Below, piece by piece: positions 2,355 through 63,322 of a stretch of 64,000 nucleotides of DNA. Position numbers and translations under genes: made by a program. The stretch's first letter is position 1. Each line of letters opens with the position of its first letter. The notes under the pieces are model-generated. The model did no database searches and had not been told where the DNA came from. It worked only from the letters and a program-made list of their open reading frames with translations. This stretch comes from Gemmataceae bacterium. GTDB lineage: Bacteria > Planctomycetota > Planctomycetia > Gemmatales > Gemmataceae. The stretch covers positions 1 through 64,000 of the forward strand of contig SHZY01000001.1 of assembly GCA_009692065.1 (NCBI GenBank), written 5' to 3'.

Positions 2355-2412
2355 TGCCGCTTGCGGCTTAGCGCTCGCAGTGCGCCGCGCGATCGCTAAA
2401 CCGCAAGCGGCA
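2355..2412. repeat. Inverted repeat, TTTAGCG family, 24-nt arms
   Basis: Arms 2355-2378 and 2389-2412 match with two differences around a 10-nt loop. The left arm begins TGCCGCTTGCGGCTTAGCG. It lies between two divergent genes, so it cannot be a terminator for either of them. Confidence 0.85.
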
Positions 2413-2490
2413 GATTCCACAACTTTTTCCTATCGAAGCGTCGCCGTGCCGACTACAATGCCAACCAAAACCTTGAGGAGGTCGATTGCC

Positions 2491-3723
2491 ATGAAGAAGT
2501 CACTGTTCGCGTTGTTGATCACCGGCTCGATCGCGTTGCCGCTCCACGCCGGCGATTGGCCGCACTGGATGGGCCCCAATCGCAACGGCGCGTCACCCGA
2601 AACCGGGTTGCTGACGACGTGGCCCAAGGCTGGTCCCAAGCTACTCTGGAAAGTCCCCGGCGGCGAAGGCTACTCGACCGTGGCCATCGCCGCCGGCCGG
2701 GCCATCACGCAGGTACAGCACGATGGCGGCGAGTATGTCCTGGCACTCGATGCGGTCAAGGGAACAAAGCTCTGGGAGACCAAGGTTGCCGCTGCCTACA
2801 AAAACGGCTACGGCAACGGCCCACGCGGGACGCCCACGATTGACGGCAAGCATGTCTACGTTCATTCGCCCAGCGGACCGCTCTCCTGCCTGGAAGCGGA
2901 CGGCGGCAAGATCGTCTGGGCGATCGATCTGCTCAAAGACTTTACCGGCAAGAAGCTCTCGTGGGGCATGGCCGCCTCGCCGCTTATCGATGGCGATCTC
3001 GTCTACGCGCTGCCCGGCGGCAAAGGGGCCGCCGTTGCCGCGTTCAACAAGATGACCGGCAAGCTCGTCTGGAAGGCCGGCGGCGACGATCAGGCCGGCT
3101 ACTCCACGCCGATGCCCCTCACCGTCGGCGGGCAAAAGCAGATCGTCTTCTTCAACGCCGCCGGCGTCTTCGCCACCACGCCCGACGATGGCAAGGAACT
3201 CTGGCGCGTCGCCTGGACGACCGGCTACGATTGCAATATCTGCACGCCGCTCCTCATCGGCAAGGACCAGCTCTTCGTCTCCTCCGGCGAGGACGTCGGC
3301 TGCGCCATGTTCAAGCTCTCCGCCGCGGCCCCTGAAGTCCTCTGGGAAAGCAAGGGCAAGAAGAGCGTCATGGAAAACTACTGGGCCAACTCGGTCTACC
3401 ACGACGGCTACCTCTACGGCATCACCGGCCATTTCGACGTCAAGAAGATGCACCTCAACTGCGTGGAAGCCAAGTCCGGCAAGCAGATGTGGACGATCAA
3501 GAACTACGGCAAATGTGCCTTGACGCTGGCGGACGGGCATCTGTTCATCACCCATTTCTCGGGAGAAGTCGTGCTCGCCGCCTGCAATCCCCAGAAGTAT
3601 GAAGAGAAAGCCCGTGCCAAGGTACTCAATGAACGGCGGCCCACCAACGCGACCATCGCCAATCAACGCCTTTACGTGCGTGATCACGATAACATCTACT
3701 GCCTGGATATCGCCGGGAAATAA
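2491..3723 (+). CDS. Exported PQQ-like beta-propeller repeat protein
   Basis: The 410-residue protein has a clear signal peptide (MKKSLFALLITGSIALPLHAG) and then WPHWMGPNRNGASPETGL, the usual opening of planctomycete PQQ-propeller proteins. Further blades show the recurrent pattern of G-x-x-W with lysine or glutamate (TKLWETKVA, GKLVWKAGG, GKELWRVAW, PEVLWESKG, GKQMWTIKN). The fold is an eight-bladed propeller. In many planctomycete members no cofactor or reaction is proven, so enzyme activity is not claimed. The start is ATG 2491, preceded by GAGGAGG at about 2474-2480. It lies directly upstream of the TIM-barrel gene with a hairpin in the 69-nt gap. Location: periplasm or cell surface. Confidence 0.85.
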   Translation: MKKSLFALLITGSIALPLHAGDWPHWMGPNRNGASPETGLLTTWPKAGPKLLWKVPGGEGYSTVAIAAGRAITQVQHDGGEYVLALDAVKGTKLWETKVAAAYKNGYGNGPRGTPTIDGKHVYVHSPSGPLSCLEADGGKIVWAIDLLKDFTGKKLSWGMAASPLIDGDLVYALPGGKGAAVAAFNKMTGKLVWKAGGDDQAGYSTPMPLTVGGQKQIVFFNAAGVFATTPDDGKELWRVAWTTGYDCNICTPLLIGKDQLFVSSGEDVGCAMFKLSAAAPEVLWESKGKKSVMENYWANSVYHDGYLYGITGHFDVKKMHLNCVEAKSGKQMWTIKNYGKCALTLADGHLFITHFSGEVVLAACNPQKYEEKARAKVLNERRPTNATIANQRLYVRDHDNIYCLDIAGK

Positions 3724-3732
3724 CTGTGACCC

Positions 3733-3770
3733 CGTTTAGCGTTCGCGTGGCGCCATGCGAACGCTAAACG
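3733..3770. repeat. Inverted repeat, TTTAGCG family, near-complete 38-bp palindrome
   Basis: Arms 3733-3746 (CGTTTAGCGTTCGC) and 3757-3770 are perfect complements, and most of the 10-nt centre also pairs. It sits between two genes on the same strand. Confidence 0.9.
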
Positions 3771-3792
3771 AATAAATCGGAGACCTCCATTC

Positions 3793-4812
3793 ATGCCTGC
3801 CACGAAATATCGCTTCACCTTCGGCCCCTGGAACATCTCCACGGGCCGTGATCCGTTTGGCCCGGAGGTCCGCAGGGACGTGCAGTTCGCCGCCAAGATC
3901 AAAGAGTACAAGAAGCTCGGCTTCGACGGCGTGCAATTCCACGACGACGACGTCGTGCCGGCCGACCTGGACTACCAACAGACGATGAAGGGCGTCACCC
4001 GCGTCAAAAAGATGCTCGATGGCGAGGGCCTGTTCTGCGAATTCATCGCCCCGCGCCTTTGGGAGCATCCCAAAACGATGGACGGCGGCTACACCTCCAA
4101 CAGCGCCAGCGATCGCAATTACGCCCTCGAACGTTCCAAACGCGCCATCGACATCGCGAACGCCATCGGCTGCGGCGACATGGTCCTCTGGCTGGCGCGT
4201 GAAGGCTCGTACATCCGCGAGGCGAAATGCGCCATCACCGCGGTGGGCCGGATCGTCGATGCCGTCAATGTGATGCTGGAACACGACCCGAAAATCCGCA
4301 TCCTCGGCGAGATGAAGCCGAACGAGCCGATGGACCAGGCCTACTGCCCGACGGTTGGCCACTTCATGGGCCTGGTGTATCGCACCGCCGATCCGAGCAG
4401 GGTCGGCGTCCTGATCGAGTCGGCCCACTCGATCCTCGCGGGGCTCGATCCCTCCGACGACATGGCCTATGCCCTGTGGCACAAGAAGCTCTGGAGCGTC
4501 CATCTTAATGACCAGAATGGCCTCAAGTACGACCAGGACAAAACCTTCGGCAGCGTCGATCTCCGCCGCGCATTCAACACCGTATGGGTCCTCGAGCGCG
4601 CCGGCTACAACGGCTGCATCGGCCTCGATGTCAAGGCGATGCGCACCACGAAGCAAGCCGATCAGACACGCCACCTCGTCAACTCGAAGGCAATCTTCGA
4701 ACGCATGGTGCAGTTAGTGCGCCGGCTCGATGTCACGAAGGTTGAGGCGTACCGGGTGGAGCGCGACTATGAAGGGCTGGAGATGTATGTGATGGAGCAT
4801 TTGCTGGGGTGA
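3793..4812 (+). CDS. Xylose-isomerase-like TIM-barrel sugar isomerase/epimerase
   Basis: This is a 339-residue, single-domain TIM barrel of the AP-endonuclease-2/xylose-isomerase superfamily, with no signal peptide. Residues expected at the divalent-metal site are visible: acidic and His residues in GFDGVQFHDDD, the Glu in ILGEMKPNEP, the Glu and His in VLIESAHSI, His-Asn-Asp in WSVHLNDQN, and Asp in CIGLDVKAM. The N-terminus (MPATKYRFTFGPWNISTGRDPFG) is characteristic of the xylose isomerase-like branch found in actinobacteria and planctomycetes. It probably interconverts an aldose and ketose. The substrate cannot be read from the sequence. It may be co-transcribed with the upstream PQQ gene. 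Confidence 0.85.
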   Translation: MPATKYRFTFGPWNISTGRDPFGPEVRRDVQFAAKIKEYKKLGFDGVQFHDDDVVPADLDYQQTMKGVTRVKKMLDGEGLFCEFIAPRLWEHPKTMDGGYTSNSASDRNYALERSKRAIDIANAIGCGDMVLWLAREGSYIREAKCAITAVGRIVDAVNVMLEHDPKIRILGEMKPNEPMDQAYCPTVGHFMGLVYRTADPSRVGVLIESAHSILAGLDPSDDMAYALWHKKLWSVHLNDQNGLKYDQDKTFGSVDLRRAFNTVWVLERAGYNGCIGLDVKAMRTTKQADQTRHLVNSKAIFERMVQLVRRLDVTKVEAYRVERDYEGLEMYVMEHLLG

Positions 4813-7077: not shown

Positions 7078-8448
7078 GTGGAATACGCAACAGCGCCCTT
7101 GTCGCGCTGGGGACGTTTGCACCTGTGGGGTATGCTGGTGCTCATCGCTGCCTTCGGCGCCGTGGTGGAGATGCGTTCCGCGTTTCTCACACGCCGCATG
7201 TCGGATTTGACCGTCTTCATTCGAGCCGGCTGGGCCGTGCGCAGCGGCGAGAATATCTACCAGGTCTCCGATGAACGCAACGGCTGGTACTACGTCTACC
7301 CGCCCTTTTTCGCTATCCTCATGGCGCCGCTCGCGGAATCCCCGCCCGGACACGATCGAAGCTGGATGATCCCGTACCCGATCACGGTCGCGTTCTGGTA
7401 CGTCTTCAACATCGCGATGTTGGTTTGGAGCGTGAACAAGCTGGCCGGCGCCCTGGAGCAAGCGTCGCCGGATAGGGCGTTGCGCGCGCAGCCTGCCTTT
7501 TGCCGGCGCTGGTGGGCGTTGCGCGTGGTGCCGATCTATGCTTGCATGATTCCGATCGGCAGCACTCTCAGTCACGGGCAGACCAACCTGGTGATCCTGG
7601 CGATGCTTGCCGGCATGTTCGCAGCGATCCTCCAGAAGAAACCCTTCCAGGCCGGCCTATGGATGGCGGGCCCCGTCTGCATGAAAGTGTTCCCCGCGTT
7701 TCTGCTGATCTATCCACTGTGGCGACGTGACACTCGCTGCCTGACAGGTTGCGCGGCGGGCCTTCTCGTCGGATTGGGCCTCCTGCCTGCCGTGGTCTTT
7801 GGTCCTGAGCGAACCGTGGCTTACTACCAGGAATTTGCCGATCTGGTGCTGCTGCCCGGTCTCGGCAAAGGAGACAACCAGGCCCGCGCCGACACCTTGA
7901 CCGATCTGAAAGCCACCGACACGCAGTCGTTCATGGCCATGATCCACAATGCGATGCACCTCGACGTCTATACGCGGCCAGCCAATCCGTCGGCGGCGGT
8001 GCGCTCTATCCATTGGGGGCTCGGCGCTGGGCTGACGCTCCTCGTTTGCCTGACCGCAGGTTGGCGCCGGCCGAGTAATCCAATGGCCGAGGTGCTGTTC
8101 CTGGGTCTTCTGGTCATGGTAATGATGTTTACCTCGCCGGTGTGCCATTTGCCTTACTTCGCCTGGCTCCTCCCGATCGTCATGGTTTTGCTGATCCTGC
8201 GCTGGGAGAACCGCCGCACACTGGCCGTCGGGACCGGGATCGCGACGCTCATCGTCCTCCACATCGCCATCCACGTGCTGGCCCACATGGCCAACTACCC
8301 GCTCTTCGCCGCCTTTCGCGATCTTGGCCTGGCAACCTATGTGGGACTGGCGCTTGGCGCCGTCGCGTTACTCGACCTGCGCAAGCAAACGCAGCCTTCG
8401 CTGACGGAAACCCCAGAGGTGATTCTCGATCAGAGAGCCGCGGCTTGA
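7078..8448 (+). CDS. Glycosyltransferase family 87 (DUF2029) membrane protein
   Basis: This is a polytopic protein of about 456 residues. After the first helix comes RRMSDLTVFIRAGWAVRSG and then WYYVYPPFFAIL, the aspartate and YPP signatures of the GT-C family 87 (polyprenyl-phosphate-mannose-type) mannosyltransferases. At least nine further hydrophobic segments follow. It probably transfers a sugar from a lipid carrier on the outer face of the cytoplasmic membrane. I chose GTG 7078 because GGAGAGAG lies seven bases upstream. The frame is open back to ATG 6943, but those 45 residues look unlike coding sequence. It is convergent with the phosphatase gene, with a hairpin between them. Confidence 0.8.
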   Translation: MEYATAPLSRWGRLHLWGMLVLIAAFGAVVEMRSAFLTRRMSDLTVFIRAGWAVRSGENIYQVSDERNGWYYVYPPFFAILMAPLAESPPGHDRSWMIPYPITVAFWYVFNIAMLVWSVNKLAGALEQASPDRALRAQPAFCRRWWALRVVPIYACMIPIGSTLSHGQTNLVILAMLAGMFAAILQKKPFQAGLWMAGPVCMKVFPAFLLIYPLWRRDTRCLTGCAAGLLVGLGLLPAVVFGPERTVAYYQEFADLVLLPGLGKGDNQARADTLTDLKATDTQSFMAMIHNAMHLDVYTRPANPSAAVRSIHWGLGAGLTLLVCLTAGWRRPSNPMAEVLFLGLLVMVMMFTSPVCHLPYFAWLLPIVMVLLILRWENRRTLAVGTGIATLIVLHIAIHVLAHMANYPLFAAFRDLGLATYVGLALGAVALLDLRKQTQPSLTETPEVILDQRAAA

Positions 8449-8512
8449 TTGCGTCGCTTGCGGCTTCGCGCTCGTGTGCCGCCTGGCGAACGCCAAGCCG
8501 CAAGCGGCGCAA
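8449..8512. repeat. Inverted repeat, GCTTGCGGCTT type, 26-nt arms
   Basis: Arms 8449-8474 and 8487-8512 pair with about four differences. It starts at the base after a stop codon and ends just before the stop of the convergent gene. It could terminate both genes, although no T-run follows. Confidence 0.8.
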
Positions 8513-8520
8513 TCGGAAAC

Positions 8521-10812: not shown

Positions 10813-10874
10813 GTCGCGTCCTTGGATATTCAAAGCCCCCAAGATATCCACAAGCGAGAAATGATACAATCTCG

Positions 10875-10903
10875 GTTAGCGACGATTCAGAAGCGTCGCT
10901 AAT
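10875..10903. repeat. Short inverted repeat, TTAGCGACG type
   Basis: Arms 10875-10884 (GTTAGCGACG) and 10894-10903 lie between the divergent GT39 and D-aminoacylase genes. They share the core TTAGCGACG with the repeat at 6851. Confidence 0.55.
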
Positions 10904-17546: not shown

Positions 17547-17594
17547 ATGACGTGGTTGTGGCACGGCCTCCTGACCGGGCCACAACCACGTCAT
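17547..17594. repeat. Perfect inverted repeat, 16-nt arms
   Basis: Arms 17547-17562 (ATGACGTGGTTGTGGC) and 17579-17594 are exact complements. The right arm ends on the first base of the stop codon of the upstream permease gene. It lies between two tandem minus-strand genes and has no T-run. Confidence 0.9.
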
Positions 17595-19681: not shown

Positions 19682-19757
19682 GCCGCTTGCCGTTTAGCGC
19701 CCGCAGTGAAGCGTCGAACGCCCGGCGCCGCTCTGCGGGCGCTAAACGGCAAGCGGC
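19682..19757. repeat. Perfect inverted repeat, TTTAGCG family, 25-nt arms
   Basis: Arms 19682-19706 (GCCGCTTGCCGTTTAGCGCC and on) and 19733-19757 are exact complements around a 26-nt loop. It is upstream of the permease start and upstream of the divergent tRNA promoter, so it is not in terminator position. Confidence 0.95.
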
Positions 19758-19984: not shown

Positions 19985-20035
19985 AGCCCGCGGCGCAAGC
20001 AAGGGAAGGAATTACCCTTGCTCGCGCTGCGGGCT
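19985..20035. repeat. Inverted repeat, AGCCCGC family, 21-nt arms, after tRNA-Gly
   Basis: Arms 19985-20005 and 20015-20035 pair with two differences (AGCCCGCGGCGCAAGCAAGG on the left). It begins 12 bases after the tRNA and is followed by TTT, so it may end the tRNA transcript. The same family occurs at 45587. Confidence 0.85.
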
Positions 20036-21616: not shown

Positions 21617-21694
21617 AACCACGGATTTCACCGATAACACGGATGCAAGGAAGCAGGCCTTTCCTCATCCGTGCTATCAGTGAAATCCGTGGTT
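21617..21694. repeat. Inverted repeat, ACCACGGATTTCAC family, 29-nt arms
   Basis: Arms 21617-21645 and 21666-21694 pair with two differences (left arm AACCACGGATTTCACCGATA and on). Six T's follow the right arm, so this copy could act as an intrinsic terminator for trigger factor. It is the same family as the inner stem at 15340-15423. Confidence 0.9.
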
Positions 21695-23369: not shown

Positions 23370-23434
23370 GTAGCCATTCACGGCCGAATTCCGCCGATGG
23401 CGAGCATCAGCAGAATTCGGCCGTGAATGGCTAC
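23370..23434. repeat. Perfect inverted repeat, 22-nt arms
   Basis: Arms 23370-23391 (GTAGCCATTCACGGCCGAAT and on) and 23413-23434 are exact complements. It lies between convergent genes and is followed by TATTCTTGCA and a stretch resembling the outer right arm at 15430-15451. Confidence 0.93.
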
Positions 23435-30839: not shown

Positions 30840-30893
30840 GCCGTTTACGTTTAGCGTTCGCACGGCGCCCCGCAAACGCTAAACGCAAGCGGC
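30840..30893. repeat. Inverted repeat, TTTAGCG family, 22-nt arms
   Basis: Arms 30840-30861 and 30872-30893 pair with three differences. It begins one base after the stop codon of the hypothetical gene. The right arm carries the GCAAGCGGC extension seen in other family members. Confidence 0.85.
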
Positions 30894-35814: not shown

Positions 35815-35985
35815 TAACCACAGAGACACAGAGACCCAGAGACCCAGAGAAGAGAAATATCGAAAGCGAATGAGGAAAGAAGAACGAGGAAGTAGGAAAC
35901 GACTTTCGAACTTCTCAATTCCTAATTCCTCGGTCTTCATTCCTCATTGCCTTTCTTCTCTGTGCCCTCTGTGTCTCTGTGGTTA
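35815..35985. repeat. Doubly nested inverted repeat of purine-rich quasi-repeats
   Basis: The outer arms are 35815-35857 and 35951-35985 (TAACCACAGAGACACAGAGA and on). The left arm has one extra 8-nt unit (GACCCAGA). The inner arms are 35866-35898 and 35919-35950 (GCGAATGAGGAAAGAAGAAC and on) and pair with several differences. The arms are built of short units such as ACACAGAG and GAGGAA. It fills the gap before mutS. Confidence 0.9.
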
Positions 35986-36004: not shown

Positions 36005-38530
36005 ATGACCACCCCAATGATGCAGCAATACCGCGATGCGAAAGCGAAGCATCCCGACATGCTGCTCCTTTTCCGCATGGGGGACTTCTACGAACTCTTC
36101 GAAACCGATGCAGAGACAGCCCACAAGGTGCTCGGGCTGACGTTGACGAGCCGCGACAAGGAAATGCCGATGGCCGGCTTTCCGCATCATCAGCTCGAAA
36201 GCTATTTGCATAAACTCTTGCGCCAGGGCTTTCGCGTCGCGGTGTGCGATCAGGTCGAGGACGCCTCGCAAGCCAAAGGCCTGGTCAAGCGTGAGGTGAC
36301 GCGCGTCGTCACGCCCGGGACGATCACCGAGGACGATCTGCTCGATCCGAAGGCGAACAATCACCTCGTCGCTATTCTGCCGACGACGGCTGCCGCGCCG
36401 ACCGGCCTGGCGTGGCTCGATGTTTCCACCGGCCAGTTTTACGCGATGGATGTGATGCCGGATCGGCTGCGCGAGGAGCTGGCGCGGCTCGCGCCTGCCG
36501 AATGCATCGGCCCGGAAACGCAAGCGAACGCTCTGAGCGGAATTTTACAGCGGCTCGCAACGGTCCCCGCCCTGTCAGCGCGGCCGGACTGGACGTTTGA
36601 TCCCAAAACCGCGAAAGAGGCACTCGGCAAGCATTTCGCGGTTTCCACGTTTGCTGGGTTCGGATTCGACGATGCGCAAGCCTGCCTGGCCGCCGCCGGG
36701 GCGCTCTTGCTGTATGTCCAAGAGATGCTGAAGACCGACGTGCGGCACATTCGCCGCCTGGTCCCGTATTTCAGCAACCAGGTGCTGCAACTCGACGACG
36801 TGACGCGCCGCAGCCTCGAATTGACGCGCACGCTGCGCGAAGGCGAACGCCACGGCTCTCTGCTCGCCGCCATCGATCGCACCGTGACGACGATGGGCGC
36901 AAGGCTTTTGCAGCAATGGCTACTCGCTCCGCTGGCGCAGCGAGAGCAAATTGAAGCGCGGCTCGATGGCGTCACCGAATTACTGGAACAGGCCCCTCTG
37001 CGCGATGACTTGCGGCAAGCGCTGAACGAAGTGAACGACCTGCAACGACTCACCTCGCGCGCCAGCACCGGCCGCGCGCTGCCGCGCGATCTTGCCGCCA
37101 TCGGGCGCACCCTGCGTTTTCTGCCGACGATCAAGGCGAAGATCGCCGCGCGCAAGTCGGCCATGCTGCGCGATCTCGAAGCGAATCTCGAGTTATGCCA
37201 GGATTTGCGGGCCACGCTCGATGCGGCGATTGTCGATGATCCGCCGCTCTCGGCCAAGGAAGGCGGCCTGATCAAGCCCGGCTATGCCCGCGACCTCGAC
37301 GAACTGCGTGACATCGCCAAAGGGGGCAAGGAGTGGATCACACGCTTCCAGGCCTCCGAGATCACACGCACCGGCATCAATTCGCTCAAAGTCGGCTTCA
37401 ACCAGGTCTTCGGCTACTACATCGAAATCACTCACGTTCACACCGCCAAGGTGCCGGCTGATTACCAGCGCAAGCAGACCTTGAAGAATGCCGAGCGCTA
37501 CATCACGCCGGAGTTGAAGGAGTACGAGGAGAAAGTCCTCTCCGCGGAGGAGAAAAGCCAGGCACGCGAATACGAGATCTTTCTCGGCCTGCGCGATCAG
37601 GTCGCGGCGCAGACCCATCGGCTTCTGCAAACCGGCGAGGTTCTCGCGCAACTCGATGTGCTGGCGGCGCTCGCCGATCTCGCCGTCTCGCGCCAATACG
37701 TGCGGCCAAGCTTGAGCGATGAGCCGATCCTTTTGATCAAGGAAGGCCGGCATCCGGTGCTCGATCAGACGTTGCCGCCCGGCACGTTTGTGCCCAACGA
37801 TGCGCTCCTCGGTAACGACGACGGCATGTTCCTTCTGATCACGGGGCCGAACATGTCAGGCAAAAGCACCTACATCCGGCAGGTCGCTCTCTTGGTGCTG
37901 CTGGCCCAGATCGGCAGCTATGTGCCTGCCAAGAGCGCCGCGATCGGCATCGTCGATCGCATCTTCACCCGCGTCGGCGCCAGCGATGAACTGAGCCGCG
38001 GGCAGAGCACCTTCATGGTCGAGATGACCGAGGCGGCCAACATCCTCAACAACGCCTCGCGCATGAGCCTGGTGATTCTCGACGAGATCGGCCGCGGCAC
38101 CTCCACTTATGATGGCGTGTCGCTGGCGTGGGCGATCACCGAGTATCTGCACAATCAGATCGGTTGCCGATCGCTGTTCGCGACCCACTATCACGAGCTG
38201 GCCCAGCTCGCCGAGACGTTGCCAAACTTGCGCAACTGCAACGTGCTGGTGCGCGAATGGCAGGAGGACATCGTCTTTCTGCACAAGATCGCGCCGGGCA
38301 GCGCCGACAAAAGCTACGGCATCCACGTCGCCCGGCTCGCAGGCATTCCAGGCGAGGTGCTCGATCGCGCAAGCCAGGTGTTGCAACAATTGGAATCGCA
38401 CCATCTCGATGAGGAGTTGCCGAAGCCGCGACTAAAGCGAACGAAGAAGGTGATCCGCGAGGTGATGCCGATGTTGTTTGAAATGGAGGAAAATGCGTCC
38501 ACGAAGGACACGAAGAGCACAAAGGGCTAA
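36005..38530 (+). CDS. mutS: DNA mismatch repair protein MutS
   Basis: The 841-residue protein (from ATG 36005, with GAGG eight bases upstream; ATG 35990 is also possible) is full length. The mismatch-reading Phe-x-Glu motif is intact (MGDFYELFETDAE). The connector, lever and clamp domains follow, then the ATPase with Walker A GPNMSGKST, SRGQSTFMVEM, Walker B VILDEIGRGTST and the His switch ATHYHELAQL. It recognises base mismatches and small loops with MutL. No mutL is in the window. The last ten residues (ENASTKDTKSTKG) are not typical of MutS and are encoded by the left arm of an inverted repeat. Confidence 0.97.
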   Translation: MTTPMMQQYRDAKAKHPDMLLLFRMGDFYELFETDAETAHKVLGLTLTSRDKEMPMAGFPHHQLESYLHKLLRQGFRVAVCDQVEDASQAKGLVKREVTRVVTPGTITEDDLLDPKANNHLVAILPTTAAAPTGLAWLDVSTGQFYAMDVMPDRLREELARLAPAECIGPETQANALSGILQRLATVPALSARPDWTFDPKTAKEALGKHFAVSTFAGFGFDDAQACLAAAGALLLYVQEMLKTDVRHIRRLVPYFSNQVLQLDDVTRRSLELTRTLREGERHGSLLAAIDRTVTTMGARLLQQWLLAPLAQREQIEARLDGVTELLEQAPLRDDLRQALNEVNDLQRLTSRASTGRALPRDLAAIGRTLRFLPTIKAKIAARKSAMLRDLEANLELCQDLRATLDAAIVDDPPLSAKEGGLIKPGYARDLDELRDIAKGGKEWITRFQASEITRTGINSLKVGFNQVFGYYIEITHVHTAKVPADYQRKQTLKNAERYITPELKEYEEKVLSAEEKSQAREYEIFLGLRDQVAAQTHRLLQTGEVLAQLDVLAALADLAVSRQYVRPSLSDEPILLIKEGRHPVLDQTLPPGTFVPNDALLGNDDGMFLLITGPNMSGKSTYIRQVALLVLLAQIGSYVPAKSAAIGIVDRIFTRVGASDELSRGQSTFMVEMTEAANILNNASRMSLVILDEIGRGTSTYDGVSLAWAITEYLHNQIGCRSLFATHYHELAQLAETLPNLRNCNVLVREWQEDIVFLHKIAPGSADKSYGIHVARLAGIPGEVLDRASQVLQQLESHHLDEELPKPRLKRTKKVIREVMPMLFEMEENASTKDTKSTKG

Positions 38531-38600
38531 ACGGACGGAATGTCCGTTAGAGTTTTTTTTTCATTCCGATCCTTCGTGTTCCTTGGTGGCCCTTCGTGGA
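38498..38600. repeat. Imperfect inverted repeat, TCCACGAAGGACACGAAG family, overlaps mutS end
   Basis: The left arm 38498-38526 is inside the mutS frame. The right arm 38571-38600 ends one base before the stop of the convergent gene. The first ten bases match exactly and the rest is an imperfect run of CACGAAGG-like units. Confidence 0.85.
38528..38561 (+). terminator. Intrinsic terminator of mutS
   Basis: A stem of AACGGAC/GTCCGTT with a 5-nt loop (38530-38548) is followed after two bases by nine T's. It lies within the loop of the larger inverted repeat and overlaps the stop codon. Confidence 0.8.
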
Positions 38601-40997
38601 TCAATCGACTTTCTTCTCTTTTTCCTTGGGCGCCGGCGGATCATCGGGCCGGAACTTGATCAGGTCGGCGCCGGTCTTGGCGGCGGTGGTCCGGCTGAAC
38701 ATGCCGATCGCGATTACGAGTTGGTTGTGAAAGGGCTGCCCCGGGGCGGCGATCTGGTGGGCCTGGCGCAAATCGTCCTGCAGCTTCTTGCCGACGGTGA
38801 CGCCGTTCTTCTGCATGTGCCGATTGAGTTCCTGCAAGGCCGGCTCGCGCAGCTTGATGTCGCGTGCGGGGTCGCCGGCGATGCCCGCCAGTTTGTTTTG
38901 AATCGTATTGACGGAGAGTCTGCTGCTGCCAGGCAGTCGGCCGAGGATCTTGATCGCCGTCGTCGCATTCTTCTCGTTGGATTTCAGTTGTTCGAGAATC
39001 ACATCAAAAGCCGGCGCGATGTCGTAGCCCTGGAGATCGCCCTGGCTGATGCTCCAGAAGGTGTCCAGCGCGGTCTTGGCAAAGAGCATTCGCTCGTCCG
39101 GCGTCAATTTCGCCAGCTGAACGTTCTTGACGTGCGTTGCCGCCAAACTTTTGAATTCGTCATCGGCCTTGAATTTGTCCTCGGTGATAACGATGGCATT
39201 CGGGTTGGACGCAATCATCTGCTTGACGACTTTCTCGCGGGCCTTATCAACTACCACGATCATCGGCAAACCACCGAGATCAAAGTGCTGCCGAAGCTGG
39301 CCGTACACGTGCGGGAAGTCGGCATTGGCCATGCCCTTGTGCAGGATGATCAGATCGAAATCAGCGCTGGCCGTGCCCTTCTTGACGGCCTCTTGCACCT
39401 TGCTGGCGAGAACAGGTTCGAAGCCGAGGGCGCCGACCGTTTTCCGTATCGCCTGCTCGTCGCCGAGTGGGGCGTGGACGACGAGCGATTTTGACGTTGC
39501 CTCGCTCGCCAGGAATCGGCGGGACAGTTCGACGATGCGTTCCGCCTCCACCGCGGGCCTCGTGGTCGGGGGCATTCTTAGCATCGCCTTCATGGCCGCG
39601 AACTGCACGCGGCGATCTGGATAGTAGAGCGCCTTGACGATGCCACGCGGCTGACCGCTCGGATTGAGCCGAGCGGCGCGGAATTCAGCGCGCTCCCCCA
39701 GTGCCATAATCAACGGCAGAATGACCGGAAGCTGCCGGTCTTCCATGCCGCGCTCCAGGACACGAAGGGCGAGGTCGGCGTCGAGCGAGGTCAGGAGCTG
39801 GTGCATCCTGGGAGAAATCGCTTCGGTCAGAATTTGATCGACCTTGGGCCGATAGTGCCGATCCAGCATCAAGCTCAAGAATACGACCTGAGCGGGTTGA
39901 TAGGCTGGATCGAGATCGAGCGCCTCGCGCGCGTAGCGCATGCCGAAGAACTCCTCGGCACGTGAAGGCGAAAGGCCGGTTGGGGCGAGCGCCAGGGCTT
40001 CGCCGTTCCACTCCCAGACCAGCACGTCCTTGTCCTCCTTGAACTTCACATTGTGCTGGTAATAGCGCTCAGCCTCGTAGGTAAGCGTCTCCTTGGACGG
40101 CGGCAACTCGTCAATCGGAAGGCGCAGGAGCGACGCCAGCACTTCCTTGGCACGGTCGCGCACGCCGGCAGGATATTGCTTGGCCGCCGACATGTGCCAC
40201 AGGTACGGGATCACCCGCTTGTCGTCCCGCTGGCGGAAGATCTCCAGAAGCGTTAAACGCAATTCGATGTCGCGATAGTCCTTCTCGTTGACGGCCTTGA
40301 AGACTTCCAGGTAAACCGACACCGTCTCCGGACCCATGCGCAGCAAGGTCTCACGCACGCGCCCATGGAGCGGCTTGCCGAAACTCTTCCGCAGCTCCTC
40401 GATCAGATAAGGAACCGCCCGTTCGCGCGAACGCGCAATTTGGACATAGGCATAACCGCGCTCTTCCGGCGTCGGGGCGTCGAGCCGGGCGATGTATTTC
40501 TTGATCCGGTCGGGGTCGCTGAGGTGCTTTTCGACGGCCTTGGTGACGCGGTCGATCAGTCCTTCGACGTTCGCCAACGCTTCGGTTCGAAACGGCGGAT
40601 GATCCGACCAATCGATCGGCTTCACGAGCCTGAGCCGCAGAAACGCCGACATGCCCTCGGCCTGTTCGAACTTGACGAGGTCCTTGTCGATCTCGTCGGC
40701 CGCATCGGTCTTGATGGCGGGGTCGTTGCCCAGCATGCGTTTGAGGTGCAGAGCTGCCAGATCGAATTTTCCGAGTTCCATTTCGAACTTGATGGCGGAC
40801 CAGTACTCGATGGTCTTCTCCGGCCTCTTGAAGAAGACGCGGTATTCCTCGTTGGCCTTGTCGAGCAGTTCGATGGTTTTCTTTTTGGTGAGGATGGCCT
40901 GCTTGTCTTTTTCGTCGTCCTGGCCGCGCGCGGGGGCTTGGGCGCGGAACGCGATGACGATCGAGACGAACGCGAAAAACCAGCGAGAAGAATTCAT
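38601..40997 (-). CDS. Large exported repeat protein with a C-terminal receiver-like domain
   Basis: I do not recognise a named family. The 798-residue protein has a signal peptide (MNSSRWFFAFVSIVIAFRAQAPARG) and a long alpha-helical middle resembling HEAT/TPR-type solenoid repeats (VPYLIEELRKSFGKPLHGRV, VIPYLWHMSAAKQYPAG, VQFAAMKAMLRMP). At about residues 520-650 an alpha/beta domain (SADFDLIILHKGMANADFPHVY and LPMIVVVDKARE) follows the pattern of a response-regulator receiver, but the usual phospho-Asp context is replaced by LIILHKG. Such receiver-like domains inside exported HEAT proteins occur in planctomycetes. Role unknown, probably scaffolding in the periplasm. The start is ATG 40997. 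Confidence 0.7.
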   Translation of the reverse strand: MNSSRWFFAFVSIVIAFRAQAPARGQDDEKDKQAILTKKKTIELLDKANEEYRVFFKRPEKTIEYWSAIKFEMELGKFDLAALHLKRMLGNDPAIKTDAADEIDKDLVKFEQAEGMSAFLRLRLVKPIDWSDHPPFRTEALANVEGLIDRVTKAVEKHLSDPDRIKKYIARLDAPTPEERGYAYVQIARSRERAVPYLIEELRKSFGKPLHGRVRETLLRMGPETVSVYLEVFKAVNEKDYRDIELRLTLLEIFRQRDDKRVIPYLWHMSAAKQYPAGVRDRAKEVLASLLRLPIDELPPSKETLTYEAERYYQHNVKFKEDKDVLVWEWNGEALALAPTGLSPSRAEEFFGMRYAREALDLDPAYQPAQVVFLSLMLDRHYRPKVDQILTEAISPRMHQLLTSLDADLALRVLERGMEDRQLPVILPLIMALGERAEFRAARLNPSGQPRGIVKALYYPDRRVQFAAMKAMLRMPPTTRPAVEAERIVELSRRFLASEATSKSLVVHAPLGDEQAIRKTVGALGFEPVLASKVQEAVKKGTASADFDLIILHKGMANADFPHVYGQLRQHFDLGGLPMIVVVDKAREKVVKQMIASNPNAIVITEDKFKADDEFKSLAATHVKNVQLAKLTPDERMLFAKTALDTFWSISQGDLQGYDIAPAFDVILEQLKSNEKNATTAIKILGRLPGSSRLSVNTIQNKLAGIAGDPARDIKLREPALQELNRHMQKNGVTVGKKLQDDLRQAHQIAAPGQPFHNQLVIAIGMFSRTTAAKTGADLIKFRPDDPPAPKEKEKKVD

Positions 40998-45586: not shown

Positions 45587-45638
45587 GAGCCCGCAGCGCG
45601 AGCAAGGATTGCTCATCCGTTGCTAGCGCTGCGGGCTC
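45587..45638. repeat. Inverted repeat, AGCCCGC family, about 22-nt arms
   Basis: Arms 45587-45608 (GAGCCCGCAGCGCGAGCAAG and on) and 45616-45638 pair with two to three differences. It lies two bases past the hemF stop codon. It is related to the repeat after tRNA-Gly at 19985. Confidence 0.85.
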
Positions 45639-48814: not shown

Positions 48815-48830
48815 ATCCCAGGACCTCGAC

Positions 48831-49346: not shown

Positions 49347-49349
49347 CAA

Positions 49350-49408
49350 TTAGCCGGACGCGCCAGCGACGGATCCCGCAAGAGACCGTCGCTGGCGCGT
49401 CCGGCTAA
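49350..49408. repeat. Perfect inverted repeat, TTAGCCGGAC family, 23-nt arms
   Basis: Arms 49350-49372 (TTAGCCGGACGCGCCAGCGA and on) and 49386-49408 are exact complements. It starts three bases after a stop codon inside the cluster. Confidence 0.95.
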
Positions 49409-49441
49409 CCTGCAATCTCGAAACTTGTTGTCGGGTGCGCC

Positions 49442-50755: not shown

Positions 50756-50783
50756 GAGAAGATTATCCTCGGGGATTCGCGTC

Positions 50784-52076: not shown

Positions 52077-52078
52077 GG

Positions 52079-52131: not shown

Positions 52132-52158
52132 GTAACCGACTAGACATGGAGCATCCGA

Positions 52159-53181: not shown

Positions 53182-53187
53182 CGTCTC

Positions 53188-56022: not shown

Positions 56023-56060
56023 CCAATAGCCACGGCGCCTTCACGCAGGCGCCGTGACGA

Positions 56061-56115
56061 ACGCTCGGCGGTTTCGCGCACGGAGAAGTGCCTGACCGCC
56101 GAGCGTTTTTTTTTT
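56061..56115 (+). terminator. Strong intrinsic terminator of the YTV gene
   Basis: The 12-bp stem ACGCTCGGCGGT (56061-56072) / ACCGCCGAGCGT (56095-56106) runs straight into ten T's. A second short GC hairpin (GGCGCC-containing, about 56033-56056) precedes it. Confidence 0.95.
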
Positions 56116-56120
56116 GTACG

Positions 56121-56154
56121 CGAAAGCCCAGGGACAGCCGTCCCTGGGCTTTCG
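56121..56154. repeat. Perfect inverted repeat, CCAGGGA family, 14-nt arms
   Basis: Arms 56121-56134 (CGAAAGCCCAGGGA) and 56141-56154 are exact complements. It is a second copy of the repeat at 28234 and lies between convergent genes. Confidence 0.9.
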
Positions 56155-56163
56155 GATTAGAAC

Positions 56164-56799: not shown

Positions 56800-56920
56800 G
56801 GGGGCCTCCAAAAATGGGGTTTATGCTTGTCGGTTCCTGAGTAGATTGACATACTGATCGAACTGTATCCGATGCATGGAGCGGATGCGAGAAGATTCCA
56901 CTTTTTGAAGGCCACCGGTC

Positions 56921-57469
56921 ATGTACAACGGCTGGGTCGCCGTCGCTACGTTTCAGGATCCGATTGCCGCGGCAGTCGTCAAGAATTTTCTCGACGCCCA
57001 GGGCATCCCCTCGGAGCTCATCGATGAGGCGACGATCGCCACCGACTGGATGCTCTCGGGCGCCATCGGCGGCATCAAGCTGCAAGTGGCGCCGCTGCAC
57101 TTGGAGCGAGCCGAGATGCTGCTCGCGCAAGTCGAGGAAGAGAAAGCCGCTACCGATGACGAGCCGCCTCCGCCGCAAACGGGAATCGCCGCCAGGGAAG
57201 TCGCCGAGGAATTACAGGCCGAGCGTGAGGACAGGGCGCCGATCAACAAGCTGGTCGATCGGATATTTCGCGCCACCGTGTTCGGCCTGATCTTGTGGCC
57301 GCTGCAGGCCTACGCGTTCTGCCTGTTGGTGCAATTGACGAGCGAGGAGGGAGAAGTCAGCCCGAATCGGCGCTGGAAGGTATGGGCGTCGCTGCTCTTG
57401 AGCTTGCCGATCCTGGGGGTGGCGTTTTGCGTTATCAGCTGGGTCGTCGGCGTGCTATTTCCGAGTTAA
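56921..57469 (+). CDS. DUF2007-type protein with C-terminal membrane segments
   Basis: The 182-residue protein has a DUF2007-like N-terminal domain (VAVATFQDPIAAAVVKNFLDAQGIPSELIDE, then GGIKLQVAPLHLERAEMLLAQ), proposed elsewhere to act in signalling or PII-like binding. An acidic linker (EEEKAATDDEPPPP) follows, and two hydrophobic helices near the C-terminus (FGLILWPLQAYAFCLLVQL and LLLSLPILGVAFCVISWVVGVL). It is a cytoplasmic domain tethered to the membrane. The function is unknown. It is convergent with the oxidoreductase gene, with a hairpin between. Confidence 0.7.
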   Translation: MYNGWVAVATFQDPIAAAVVKNFLDAQGIPSELIDEATIATDWMLSGAIGGIKLQVAPLHLERAEMLLAQVEEEKAATDDEPPPPQTGIAAREVAEELQAEREDRAPINKLVDRIFRATVFGLILWPLQAYAFCLLVQLTSEEGEVSPNRRWKVWASLLLSLPILGVAFCVISWVVGVLFPS

Positions 57470-57481
57470 GTTTCACTCGTG

Positions 57482-57548
57482 ACGAGCCGCGACCGTGAGG
57501 GAGCGGGGAACCCGCTTAGGTCAACGCTCCCTGACGGTCGCGGCTCGT
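57482..57548. repeat. Inverted repeat, ACGAGCCGCGACCGT family, 24-nt arms
   Basis: Arms 57482-57505 and 57525-57548 pair with one mismatch. The left arm reads ACGAGCCGCGACCGTGAGGG and on. A sister copy lies at 60652. Confidence 0.93.
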
Positions 57549-57579
57549 TTACGATACCGATCGATGCTGGACATGATCG

Positions 57580-59229: not shown

Positions 59230-59249
59230 GGGATGCTCCTTGTAAATAT

Positions 59250-59316
59250 CAGGGGTCAGGGGTCAGGAATGCGGAACGGCCTTTGGTGATTCCTGACCCC
59301 TGGCTCCTGACTCCTG
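59250..59316. repeat. Inverted repeat of AGGGGTC quasi-repeats, overlaps a gene end
   Basis: The left arm 59250-59270 (CAGGGGTCAGGGGTCAGGAA) and the right arm 59289-59316 pair, with the right arm carrying one extra partly matching unit. The right arm and loop lie inside the 3' end of the DoxX-like gene. Confidence 0.85.
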
Positions 59317-60531: not shown

Positions 60532-61028
60532 GAGAGGTCACTTTGAGGAGAATCGGGCGGGCAGTGCAAGCCTTGAGGTTCATCCTTGAGGTTCATCATA
60601 AACGGCGGGGCGAGCTCGGCCAACGAAAAATCGGGTAAAATGCTATTGTCAACGAGCCGCGACCGTAAGGGAGCGGGACGTGCGGCCCCGCTCCCTTACG
60701 GTCGCACCTCGTCCGGCACAAACGCTACCGCCGGTATTTTCTACCCAATCCGTAATATTTCCCCCATGCGTACCGTTACGGCGAATTTTATACCAAAAAC
60801 TCTCAAGTAGCCTATTGCTGGAACCGGGCAGGTATGCTAAAACTCGAGTTACCGGAATGAGGTCGTGCGCATATCTCAGGACGAGACCCGGATTTCCCCT
60901 ACGACGTTTCCATGGATGGCCCGATCGCACTAGCTGAAAGTACCAAGCGCTGGGCTGCGCGGGCGGCTCCGAAAAATCTCTTACCTGGTCCATCCGTACC
61001 GTTTCCAAACACCCGAGGTTGTGCAACA
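60532..61028. other. Divergent intergenic region
   Basis: No gene is recognised. The frame of the VWA gene is open back to 60912, but those codons read as low-quality sequence. The region contains the repeat at 60652 and should hold the promoters of the DoxX-like and VWA genes. Confidence 0.5.
60652..60712. repeat. Inverted repeat, ACGAGCCGCGACCGT family, 26-nt arms
   Basis: Arms 60652-60677 and 60687-60712 pair with two to three differences near the outer end. At the site where the sister copy at 57482 has a G-G mismatch this one has a matched A-T pair. It lies between divergent genes. Confidence 0.93.
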
Positions 61029-62315
61029 ATGGCGGCAAAGATTCACGTCGAACGCATGATGCACCGCAGCAGCATTGCCGTGGCCGGGGAGTCGGCTGCA
61101 AGCTATGCGCTCATCAAACTCATCCCGTCCGGGCTCGGAGGCGCCTCCAAGTCCATGGGATTGAATCTCGCGCTGGTGCTGGACATGTCCGGTTCCATGT
61201 ACGAGGAAGACGGGACCAGCATCTCACGCCTCAAGCGCGTGCAGGACGCGGCCCTCGCGGCCATCCAAAAACTGAAACCCGATGACACACTGACCATCGT
61301 CGCCTTCGCTCACAACGCGCTGATCGTCCTGCCGCTGACACCGCTTTCCGAAAAAGAAAAAATCGAAGACGCCATTCGCAATATCGAAATGTCCGACGTC
61401 GATCCAGGCGGCACCGCCATGAACGACGGCATGAAGCTGGCGCTCGACGAAATCGAAAAGTCGGCCGGCCCCGGCAAGTTGTCGCAGATCGTCGTCCTCA
61501 CCGACGGCGAAACCTCCGGCGAGCAGGATTGCCGCGTGCTTGCCGAACGCGCCCACAAGAGCAAAATCCATCTCACGTTGATGGGCGTCGGCATCGACTG
61601 GAAGGCAAACCTCATCAAGGACCTCGCCAAGATCAGCGAAGGCAAGTGGTACTACATCGACGTCAACCAGGCCGCCGAGGCCGAACGCATTTTCGTCGAG
61701 GAATTCGAGTCTTTGGCCGCCACCGGCTTCATGAACGTCGAGATGCACATCAAGCCGATGAAGGACATCAAGATCAAACGCATTCGCCAGGTGGTTCCGG
61801 AAATCAAGGAGTTGACGACGACGGAACCCGAGGAACGCCACATCGTCGGGCCGCTCGGAACGCTGCAAAAGGATCAGACCGCCCGCTACGTGCTCGATCT
61901 GAGCTTGCCCAAACGGCCCGACGGCAAGTACGTCATCGCGCAGATGGAAATCACCTACGAAGTCGAGGCCGGCACCCGCGAAAGCACCGGGCCAATCCCG
62001 ATCGAGATGACTTATACCGCCGCGGGCCATGGTTATGTCAACGCCGAGGTTATGAAACACATCGACGAGGTGCAGATCTTCGAGTTGAACAAGAATCTGC
62101 AAGTCGCCATCGCTTCGGAAAACAAAGAAGAAGTGCAGAGGGTGGCTGAGCAGATCGAGGCCAAGGGCCAGCTGATGGGCCCGCGTGCCGCCAAGAAGAC
62201 GATGCTTGCGAGGCAAGTGTTGCAAGAGCTAAACGCCGGCGGCCGCGTGTCGAAGAAGACGCAACTCGCGATGGAAGATTCTGCCCGCATGGCGGAAGAG
62301 ATGCCGTCGGGCTGA
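61029..62315 (+). CDS. VWA domain protein
   Basis: The 428-residue protein has a complete von Willebrand A domain with its metal-ion site: DMSGSM (Asp52, Ser54, Ser56), Thr in DPGGTAMNDG and Asp in VVLTDGETSG. A beta-rich segment follows (about 230-340) and a helical C-terminus. There is no signal peptide from ATG 61029, so it is cytosolic. VWA proteins of this type assemble complexes or bind metal-dependent ligands. It is followed by FHA and zinc-ribbon genes, which suggests a shared phospho-signalling or assembly role. Confidence 0.87.
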   Translation: MAAKIHVERMMHRSSIAVAGESAASYALIKLIPSGLGGASKSMGLNLALVLDMSGSMYEEDGTSISRLKRVQDAALAAIQKLKPDDTLTIVAFAHNALIVLPLTPLSEKEKIEDAIRNIEMSDVDPGGTAMNDGMKLALDEIEKSAGPGKLSQIVVLTDGETSGEQDCRVLAERAHKSKIHLTLMGVGIDWKANLIKDLAKISEGKWYYIDVNQAAEAERIFVEEFESLAATGFMNVEMHIKPMKDIKIKRIRQVVPEIKELTTTEPEERHIVGPLGTLQKDQTARYVLDLSLPKRPDGKYVIAQMEITYEVEAGTRESTGPIPIEMTYTAAGHGYVNAEVMKHIDEVQIFELNKNLQVAIASENKEEVQRVAEQIEAKGQLMGPRAAKKTMLARQVLQELNAGGRVSKKTQLAMEDSARMAEEMPSG

Positions 62316-62326
62316 TAATCAGTCCT

Positions 62327-62386
62327 CGTTTAGCGCCCGCCGATTGGCCGACGTGAACGTAAGCCAATGGGCGGGCGCTAAACGAA
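62327..62386. repeat. Inverted repeat, TTTAGCG family, 22-nt arms
   Basis: Arms 62327-62348 (TCGTTTAGCGCCCGCCGATT and on) and 62365-62386 pair with one difference. It lies between the tandem VWA and FHA genes. Confidence 0.92.
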
Positions 62387-62500
62387 GACAAGAATCATAC
62401 GGGGAACTCAATAACGGCGATGCGCGTCGCCTGGGAAACTGACGCTTTGACGGCCAACCTGGCGCCGCCATAGCTCAATGATGCGGAGGTTACTGTAGCC

Positions 62501-63220
62501 ATGGTGAAATGTTTGTTTTGTGGTTTTTCCAACGAAGACGGCGCATTGTTTTGCGAACAGTGCAAGTCGGATATCAGCAACGTGCAGCCGGCGCCAGCGC
62601 CGCCGCCCTTGCCGCCCCCGATGCCGGAATCCATCCCGCCCGCGCCGATGATGGCAGAGGAAGCGCCGGTCATGGCAGCAATCGTGGAGGAAGCGCCGGC
62701 AGCCGTAGTGGTAGTGGCCGGGGCGCCTGCCGCCGAGGTCGTGGCCGAAGCGCCGCCAGCCGAGGTCGTTCCCGAAGCGCCAGCTGCCGAGGTCGTTGTT
62801 GAAACGCCGCCGGCTCCGCCTGCACCGGCCGCTTCGGAAGCCGAAGCCCCCGCCAAACCTGCCGCCGCAACCGGGACTCCGATTCCCGCCGGCGCAACTG
62901 TCAAGCTCGTCGTGCAGCGCGGCCTCAAGATCGGCGAAGAGTACACCCTCTTCGCGGGTGAAAACTTTGTCGGCCGAGCCGACGAAAAACCGGTTGACGT
63001 CGATCTGACCTTCCAGGAACCCGAGGACCGCGTGTGGTGCTCCCGCCAGCACGCCCTCCTGGTGTACGATGACGCCGCCGGCACGCTCACGGTCGAAGAT
63101 CTCAACAGCTCCAACGGGACCTTCGTCAACCGTGAACGCGTTTACCCCGGTCAGCCGCGTCAATTGTTCGTCGGCAACACCGTCCAGATCGGCACCGTGC
63201 ATATGCGTGTCAAGGTGTAA
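62501..63220 (+). CDS. Zinc-ribbon and FHA domain protein
   Basis: The 239-residue protein has an N-terminal zinc ribbon (Cys4, Cys7, Cys18, Cys21 in CLFCGFSNEDGALFCEQC), a long Pro/Ala/Glu/Val-rich linker of about 85 residues (repeats of EAPAAEVV), and a C-terminal FHA domain with the phosphothreonine-binding core (GRADEKPVDVDL, CSRQHALLV, LNSSNGTFVN). FHA domains bind phospho-Thr peptides, so it is a probable reader of Ser/Thr kinase output. It follows the VWA gene and precedes another zinc-ribbon gene. The start is ATG 62501. Confidence 0.9.
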   Translation: MVKCLFCGFSNEDGALFCEQCKSDISNVQPAPAPPPLPPPMPESIPPAPMMAEEAPVMAAIVEEAPAAVVVVAGAPAAEVVAEAPPAEVVPEAPAAEVVVETPPAPPAPAASEAEAPAKPAAATGTPIPAGATVKLVVQRGLKIGEEYTLFAGENFVGRADEKPVDVDLTFQEPEDRVWCSRQHALLVYDDAAGTLTVEDLNSSNGTFVNRERVYPGQPRQLFVGNTVQIGTVHMRVKV

Positions 63221-63231
63221 CCGCTCAAGAT

Positions 63232-63322
63232 AGTGCGCAGTGGGCAGTAGCCAGTGGGCTGTACCGAATCGGCAGAACTCTGCCACCCATTCGGGAGACT
63301 GTCCACTGCACACTGCCCACTT
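63232..63322. repeat. Inverted repeat of AGTGGGCAGT quasi-repeats
   Basis: The left arm 63232-63263 and right arm 63297-63322 pair with several differences (core AGTGGGCAGTAGCCAGTGGG). A second, inner stem (CCGAAT/ATTCGG, GGCAGA/TCTGCC) occupies the loop. It lies between tandem genes. Confidence 0.85.

Follow-up and report, generated by a model that had tools for sequence, protein, structure and literature searches.

Intergenic hairpins of a Gemmataceae bacterium as probable gene-less copies of units bracketing RAYT-type, GxxExxY and S23p genes

The first 64,000 nucleotides of contig SHZY01000001.1 from a Gemmataceae bacterium (GenBank assembly GCA_009692065.1; this whole stretch is called the window below, and the genome it comes from the source genome) contain a dense set of intergenic inverted repeats of many sequence families. 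Our analysis suggests, with a probability that we put at roughly three in four, that most of the strong hairpins of the window are gene-less copies of units which bracket genes of three kinds, either in the source genome or in relatives from the same family. There is no single system behind the hairpins; three classes account for them. Class A is of the known kind formed by repetitive extragenic palindromes (REP) and genes of the type of REP-associated tyrosine transposases (RAYT), class B1 has periodic arms resembling those around GxxExxY genes (PF13366), and class B2 has heptad arms like those around genes annotated as "four helix bundle / 23S rRNA intervening sequence protein" (S23p, PF05635). 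Nine unexplained hairpin families are thereby turned into a testable rule, namely to find the gene that is bracketed by the same repeat.

With an ungapped stem finder (match +1, mismatch -2, loop of at most 40 nt) we called 31 hairpins in the window at a score of at least 10, in agreement with the approximately 30 inverted repeats claimed by a first-pass annotation, as compared with a mean of 5.45 (largest 8) in shuffled sequence, so that about five of the weakest may be due to chance. At a score of at least 12 there are 24 hairpins versus 0.6 in shuffles, and at a score of at least 14 (the "strong" hairpins) there are 19 versus 0 in each of 20 dinucleotide shuffles, the control that the same annotation had proposed; the motifs it named were also found. 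A 458.6-kb sample of the source genome, window included, yielded 130 hairpins with a score of at least 14, its 20 added stretches yielding 0 after one shuffle, and 1.14 Mb yielded 283, all classes together. The source genome and its relatives are metagenome-assembled genomes, genes were called with our own script and not with a standard caller, and hairpin families were named by eye. A repeat of ~150 nt at window positions 1-148 was found again, with 98–100% identity, in 22 further contigs, at their ends or close to them, and thus probably broke the assembly.

Repeats on both flanks of three kinds of genes

For class A, 50 Y1/RAYT-type loci from seven genomes of the same genus, a part of all matches, were entered in a flank comparison, and two were dropped for short flanks. 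In 38 of the 48 testable loci the same stretch of at least 14 nt was found on the left and on the right, as compared with 9 of 400 random positions in the source genome. Six window families, including the dominant TTTAGCG family, match both flanks of a RAYT-type gene: TTTAGCGCCCGC (C79 in the source genome), CCGCTTGCGGCTTAGCG (G005:C363), TTAGCCGGACGCGCAAGCGACGG (G003:C190), AGCCCGCAGCGCAAGCAAGG (G004:C77), ACGAGCCGCGACCGTAAGGGAGCGG (G004:C109) and CGCTTGCGGCTTCGCG (L205, from another genus). Gene C37 of the source genome has only a one-sided link, to the family of the hairpin at 56060. The search for a Y1/HUH transposase, which the first-pass annotation had suggested, thus explains most of the families, but not the periodic ones (ACCACGGAT, ACCACAGAG, TCCACGAAGG and AGGGGTC), whose units surround GxxExxY or S23p genes. 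One common transposase for all families was rejected: the Pfam profile Y1_Tnp detected three genes in the source genome, and profiles built from relatives found more.

The TTTAGCG family comprises 68 hairpins (score of at least 13) and 170 sites in 1.14 Mb. The inner gap of its inward-facing pairs is exactly 20 nt in 45 of 63 cases and 38–43 nt in 13, with 60 more sites unpaired; by this geometry, an inverted pair at a fixed distance, the family is a REPIN (REP doublet forming a hairpin). The fixed spacing holds for the TTTAGCG family, most other families lying outside that test. In the source genome, two TTTAGCGCCCGC (TTTAGCG) hairpins flank the C79 transposase gene (L181, C79:23109-23682). 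This gene was matched in two frames and is apparently frameshifted; it may be truly broken, in which case the TTTAGCG family may now lack a working transposase in the source genome, or the frameshift may be an error of the assembly. Among the control genes we came across a divergent RAYT-like gene (L098 13407-13889, C238 of the source genome, MPDHIHFF) that scores below the Pfam Y1 cut-off and is bracketed by the GGCTCGGCAGGAGCC family. Other Y1-type transposases (L162 and L163 in G001, VYHVLNR) lie between inverted AAAAGGGGTCGGG-like repeats, which share k-mers with a hairpin of the source genome (L093 13968).

Periodic repeats of the class B kind occur near GxxExxY and four-helix-bundle genes, which prompted a test in which the left flank was aligned locally against the reverse-complemented right flank, a score of at least 16 being counted as positive. 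Within the genus, inverted arms were found at 20 of 23 GxxExxY loci and at 22 of 30 S23p loci (from 25 and 32 match rows, two PF13366 genes having given two rows each and two PF05635 rows being without a locus), versus 9 of 236 similarly sized control genes. Of these nine positive controls, six turned out to be S23p or Y1-type genes themselves and two are flanked by TTTAGCG repeats; the last, a lipoprotein-like, non-S23p gene in C72 of the source genome (L107 13370-13972), is located between inverted TCAGG heptad arrays. In a sample of the phylum, represented by the best-scoring locus of each of 30 genomes and not by a random draw, inverted arms were present at 26 of 30 loci for either family. 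Altogether S23p was found in 77 and GxxExxY in 70 of 149 sampled Planctomycetota genomes, the source genome included.

The two families differ in the period of their arms. B1 arms consist of units of 8-11 nt with an AACCAC-like tip (CACGGAT, CACAGAG, CACGAAG, GCAAAG), and a period of 8-11 was found in 25 of 26 GxxExxY arms of the phylum sample, with a CAC/CGC-type motif in 22 of 26 (a loose motif, without a control of its own). B2 arms consist of 7-nt units such as TCAGGGG, GTAGTCC, AGTGGGC and AATGAGG; in the phylum sample (n=26) the period is 7 in 18 loci, 8 in 4, 9 in 2 and 6 in 2, the units varying between genomes. The D and E-x-K residues of the PD-(D/E)XK nuclease superfamily were detected in 16 of 21 GxxExxY proteins with a strict regular expression, which includes L302 by virtue of a chance stretch, and in 19 of 21 when the alignment was read by eye, the exceptions being L302 and the truncated L292.

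Assignment of the window hairpins to carriers

Thirteen of the 19 strong window hairpins (11 of class A, 2 of class B2) share at least five 10-mers with each flank of one carrier locus. The hairpins of the window, strong and weak, are as follows.

2355..2412: class A, REPIN-type, CCGCTTGCGGCTTAGCG family, between divergent genes; score 18; 26 10-mers common with both flanks of the RAYT-type gene G005:C363 (L171)
3733..3770: class A, CGTTTAGCGTTCGC; score 16; member by motif, weak k-mer link (6 10-mers, one flank of L245)
8447..8514: class A, CGCTTGCGGCTTCGCG family; score 19; 23 10-mers with both flanks of a RAYT-type gene from another genus (L205)
10876..10902: weak class A-like, TTAGCGACG, between divergent genes; score 10, possibly chance by score alone; 3 10-mers with one flank of L212
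15335..15428 (strong hairpin 15340): class B1, AACCACGGAT units; 39-nt arms, 92% complementary; weak k-mer link, 8 10-mers
17547..17594: strong hairpin ATGACGTGGTTGTGGCACGG; score 17; carrier not found among the loci compared
19682..19757: class A, TTTAGCGCCCGC, between divergent genes; score 25; 33 10-mers with both flanks of the RAYT-type gene C79 of the source genome (L181)
19985..20035: class A, AGCCCGC..GCGCAAGCAAGG; score 15; 25 10-mers with both flanks of G004:C77 (L225)
21617..21694: class B1, AACCACGGAT units; score 23; weak k-mer link, 3 10-mers
23370..23434: strong hairpin GTAGCCATTCACGGCCGAATTC; score 24; at most 5 10-mers, one flank only
30840..30893: class A, CGTTTACGTTTAGCG; score 13; 20 10-mers with both flanks of G002:C70 (L245)
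35815..35985: nested composite by sequence and fold, outer B1 arms TAACCACAGAGACACAGAG around an inner B2 hairpin
35862..35955: inner class B2 hairpin in the B1 loop, GAATGAGGAA heptad-like units; score 22; 27 10-mers with both flanks of the S23p gene G004:C134 (L326)
38491..38606: class B1, arms TCCACGAAGG (+38498, -38591); 16 10-mers with both flanks of the GxxExxY gene L295
44520..44582: class A, TTAGCCGGACTCGCAAGCGACGG, between divergent genes; score 29; 24 10-mers with both flanks of G003:C190 (L231)
45587..45638: class A, GAGCCCGCAGCGCGAGCAA; score 16; 16 10-mers with L225
47471..47520: class A, GCTTGCGGCTTAGCGCTC; score 18; 17 10-mers with L171; junction without a hairpin of score 11 or more in 5 of 5 syntenic relatives
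49350..49408: class A, TTAGCCGGACGCGCCAGCGACGG; score 23; 16 10-mers with L231
50714..50755: class A, TTCGTTTAGCGCCCGC; score 13; 32 10-mers with C79 of the source genome; junction without a hairpin of score 11 or more in 6 of 6 relatives
56060..56107: GCTCGGCGGTTTCGCGCAC family; score 13; 22 10-mers with one flank only of the RAYT-type gene C37 of the source genome (L180)
56121..56154: palindrome CGAAAGCCCAGGGAC; score 15; no carrier gene found, at most 4 10-mers with any carrier
57482..57548: class A, ACGAGCCGCGACCGTGAGGGAGCG; score 21; 22 10-mers with both flanks of G004:C109 (L217)
59249..59310: class B2, TCAGGGG heptads; score 16; 15 10-mers with both flanks of the S23p gene G002:C108 (L338)
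60652..60712: class A, ACGAGCCGCGACCGTAAGGGAGCGGG, between divergent genes; score 20; 38 10-mers with both flanks of G004:C109
62322..62389: class A, CTCGTTTAGCGCCCGC; score 21; 34 10-mers with C79 of the source genome
63239..63321: weak inverted pair AGTGGGCAGT, heptad-like, B2 by look only; unit identical to hairpin L107 4682 of the source genome; no carrier k-mer link

The contig of G005:C363 terminates in a repeat of the CCGCTTGCGGCTTAGCG family. The AACCACGGAT unit of the hairpins at 15335 and 21617 also occurs in the inverted arms of the GxxExxY gene G004:C69 (L302), the outer unit TAACCACAGAGACACAGAG of the nested composite is of the same kind as the inverted arms of the GxxExxY gene C68 of the source genome (L289), and TCAGGGG-type heptads as in the hairpin at 59249 also flank the S23p gene C108 of the source genome (L316). 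A second nested case, with CACAGAG/CACCGAG arms around CACGAAG arms, was seen in C183 of the source genome (L280 2113-2292). The called 3' end of gene 36005-38530 runs into the TCCACGAAGG arm at 38498, and the B1 element at 38491..38606 may supply the last codons of this gene. The palindrome CGAAAGCCCAGGGAC is a repeated family, with 11 hairpins in 1.14 Mb. A tRNA gene (19901-19972) is located between the hairpins at 19682 and 19985; an Rfam scan of the window returned this one tRNA and nothing further above threshold.

Placement, turnover and competing explanations

The first-pass annotation had described the hairpins as mostly non-coding and close to stop codons, which agrees with our counts in the 458.6-kb sample: although 89% of this DNA is called as coding, 111 of the 130 hairpins lie in gene junctions, 10 within genes and 9 elsewhere, and the median distance from a stop codon is 6 nt (n=94), versus 13 nt under uniform placement. 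The hairpins at 2355, 19682, 44520 and 60652 are indeed situated between divergent genes, as is the one at 10876, between called genes 9223-10869 (-) and 10917-12602 (+). The claim that hairpins occupy more than half of the gene junctions was too high for this sample, since a hairpin with a score of at least 14 is present in 108 of 296 junctions of 20 nt or more (36%).

Six junctions of the window could be followed in relatives, and the same hairpin family was found in 0/1, 0/1, 0/5, 0/6, 0/6 and 0/1 of them; in 18 of the 20 comparisons the junction of the relative lacks any hairpin with a score of at least 11, bearing in mind that the relatives are distant (one window protein is ~70% identical) and decayed hairpins could be missed. 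At the junction of the hairpin at 49350 the TTAGCCGGACGCGCCAGCGACGG family is missing from 6 of 6 relatives, one of which has a different hairpin, and the junction between 48775 and 48831, empty in the window, holds other families in 4 of 6 relatives. The bracketing of transposase-type and other genes by the same repeats, together with this turnover at the same junctions, indirectly supports the earlier suggestion of mobile hairpins.

In the gene-bearing class B units, both adjacent genes share the orientation of the S23p gene at 27 of 30 loci and that of the GxxExxY gene at 19 of 23, versus 121 of 238 for background genes. The outer edge of an arm is no more than 12 nt away from a stop codon in 16 of 20 S23p and 10 of 17 GxxExxY units, two of the 17 having no stop side; the units examined represent 20 of 22 S23p and 17 of 20 GxxExxY loci with arms. 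The 20 S23p units examined in the genus have called protein genes on both flanks, so they lie outside 23S rRNA genes. One site, the junction between DUF58 and VWA genes, appears as occupied, gene-less or empty among close relatives. In G000 and G004 it holds an S23p unit, the stop codon of DUF58 falling within the first TAGTCCG unit, and in G006 a gene-less TAGTTGTCAG heptad hairpin sits at this stop codon. No hairpin was called by the finder in G001, G002 and G003: by eye, a TTAGCG-type repeat is visible in G002 and a short repeat remnant in G003, and there is nothing in G001. In G005 the contig ends there. Orientation and stop-codon placement together suggest selection or movement at the RNA level.

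We propose the following scheme. Class A arms match the palindromes flanking RAYT-type genes, different transposases going with different palindromes, and would be excised and inserted as single strands, by analogy with other REP/REPIN systems. The arms of class B1 are similar to the inverted repeats flanking GxxExxY genes, members of the PD-(D/E)XK nuclease superfamily, and class B2 arms match those around genes for S23p, a family also carried by the intervening sequences (IVS) of 23S rRNA; the gene-bearing units of both, placed mostly at stop codons between co-directional genes, may survive and be mobile as hairpins within transcripts of the host, where they would be processed or copied. In the last putative step the protein would bind its own stem.

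Several observations weigh against the view that the window hairpins are copies of such units. The carrier was found by 10-mers for none of the hairpins at 17547, 23370 and 56121 (3 of the 19 strong ones) among the loci compared, and three further strong hairpins were assigned more by motif than by k-mers (3733 to class A, 15340 and 21617 to B1). In the null comparison, 36 of 300 hairpin-free intergenic stretches share at least 10 10-mers in total with some carrier. The controls of the analysis come from the source genome, while most carriers come from relatives. Several window families have a carrier only in relatives, the carrier in the source genome having possibly been lost or left unassembled. 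Arms are missing from 8 of 30 S23p and 3 of 23 GxxExxY loci in the genus and from 4 of 30 each in the phylum sample. Three control genes of other kinds score as well, hence bracketing alone is no proof of a carrier. Among eight proteins submitted to NCBIfam, all six transposases match NF047646 (RAYT), with a best score of 70.3 bits, below the curated cut-off of 80; the other two, an S23p and a GxxExxY protein, do not match it. The S23p unit of the source genome folds only modestly better than its shuffles (-179.0 versus -166.0, sd 6.8, in 30 shuffles). The idea that heptads serve as three-frame stop signals was not convincing, with stops in all frames in 3 of 21 and 6 of 25 upstream arms, versus shuffle means of 0.8 (max 4) and 2.8 (max 8). 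Finally, no movement of a hairpin was seen and no target-site duplication was resolved.

The alternative that deserves most attention is that S23p and GxxExxY are passengers, i.e. that an unrelated enzyme moves the arms and the genes are cargo. To our knowledge S23p has no known function, so the B2 element may depend on another enzyme, and the gene-less hairpins in the same genomes imply that the gene is dispensable in cis. However, each protein family holds its own arm period across the phylum samples, and in 21 of 22 S23p and 18 of 20 GxxExxY units of the genus neither arm is more than 150 nt away from the match, which leaves no space for another gene; we consider cargo status less likely than not. 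A role of the hairpins as 3'-end signals made by the host (terminators or stems that block RNases), maintained by selection and with mobility incidental, would account for the proximity to stop codons and for the enrichment in convergent junctions, 28 of 46 of which hold a hairpin with a score of at least 14, as compared with 65 of 200 tandem ones. At least 5 T of 8 beside an arm, found in 15 of 130 hairpins (11.5%) versus 6.1% of control positions, point the same way. Yet at least 6 T of 8 beside either arm were found in only 3 of 130 (2.3%, control positions 1.5%), so at most a small part of the hairpins has the T-run after the stem expected of an intrinsic terminator; 15 of 50 divergent junctions also hold a hairpin, terminator-like sites in 44000-63999 number 22 versus 20.7 in shuffles, and no family was conserved at the six junctions followed. 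The scarcity of T-runs and the turnover disfavour a terminator-only reading, in line with the earlier remark that the hairpins are not simply terminators, and the wider 3'-end role appears improbable. It is still harder to believe that class B arms are ordinary microsatellites which grew by slippage and were inverted through fold-back template switching, the S23p and GxxExxY genes being located between them only by chance. The arms are indeed short-period arrays whose unit order differs from copy to copy, and TCAGG heptads also flank one unrelated control gene; yet two protein families with different periods are bracketed far more often than the controls in the genus, and the bracketing was seen again in the phylum sample.

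Rewriting of arms by templated repair, another suggestion of the first-pass annotation, was rejected, for the TTTAGCG family alone. Within its inner 10 nt the arms of one copy are more similar to each other than arms of different copies (0.752 versus 0.638, largest permutation 0.684), and subfamilies can explain this likeness. Rare letters are seldom common to both arms of a copy (5 of 30 inner, 3 of 19 outer, in 63 pairs), which fits subfamilies with independent decay and does not fit frequent correction of one arm by the other; for two related families the pairs (16 and 10) were too scarce for a further statement. On the whole, the earlier interpretation was partly supported: the mobile hairpins (indirectly), the doubt about terminators and the transposase search agree with our results, and templated repair in the TTTAGCG family does not.

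Returning to gene-less copies of gene-bracketing units, one can go further and speculate, with low confidence, that Planctomycetota hold many transcript-borne mobile hairpins around S23p (7-nt units) or GxxExxY (8-11-nt units), with insertion sites at the stop codons that separate co-transcribed genes. The IVS of 23S rRNA in its classical form would then be the one branch that landed in rRNA, and S23p, being kin of Avd, would attach to the heptad stem and recruit a reverse transcriptase to copy the RNA back into DNA. If true, this would provide a function for a protein family that lacks one. The units described here give two widespread families of unclear role, S23p and GxxExxY, a genomic setting, and genomes with several copies make it possible to test whether rRNA intervening sequences are mobile elements, which is an old question, the occupied, gene-less and empty versions of the DUF58-VWA site providing a basis for such tests.

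Comparison with known systems

For the S23p and GxxExxY kinds, two of the three, no earlier report was found in our searches; by the terms used, titles and openings of abstracts yielded no report of such genes in periodic inverted arms outside rRNA, and a text search with five repeat strings gave nothing relevant and one unrelated match. Systems of the class A kind are already known in planctomycetes, for which PMC3733652 describes tagged REPs and, in R. baltica, a "plethora" of genes for tyrosine transposases with flanking repeats. As in REP/REPIN systems with RAYT and in TIRYT/TIRtron elements (PMC3733652), the palindromes bracket Y1/HUH transposase genes and are scattered between genes. Unlike in REP/RAYT systems, many RAYT-type genes with different palindromes exist here within one genus, and for several families no matching transposase was found in the same genome; the tips are often TTTAG/TTAG (by eye) instead of the GTAG given in PMC3733652.

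Miniature inverted-repeat transposable elements (MITEs) likewise are short, gene-less and present in many copies with terminal inverted repeats, but no target duplication was resolved for our hairpins, and the arms of class B are built of periodic units and differ from one copy to the next. Class B2 also resembles the TAACTGA heptamer arrays of Beggiatoaceae in having intergenic 7-nt units. According to PMC4679880, some of those arrays overlap stop codons; there, however, the repeats are in direct orientation and mostly precede start codons, with one inverted set reported.

The closest parallel to B2 is the 23S rRNA IVS of Coxiella burnetii, which, according to PMC4990558, has a 28-bp stem of terminal inverted repeats, an S23p open reading frame (ORF) inside and direct heptamers beside the ORF. 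B2 units share the terminal inverted repeats around an S23p ORF, but their stem itself is made of heptads, they lie at stop codons between protein genes, they occur in several copies per genome and they have gene-less forms; given their location between protein genes, we do not claim that they belong to the 23S rRNA IVS family. The S23p protein of the source genome matches the solved structure 2gsc by sequence, and according to PMC10053308, which refers to a structural alignment of 4DWL and 2GSC, PF05635 resembles Avd of diversity-generating retroelements. By analogy, B1 and B2 look like intergenic counterparts of the 23S rRNA IVS.

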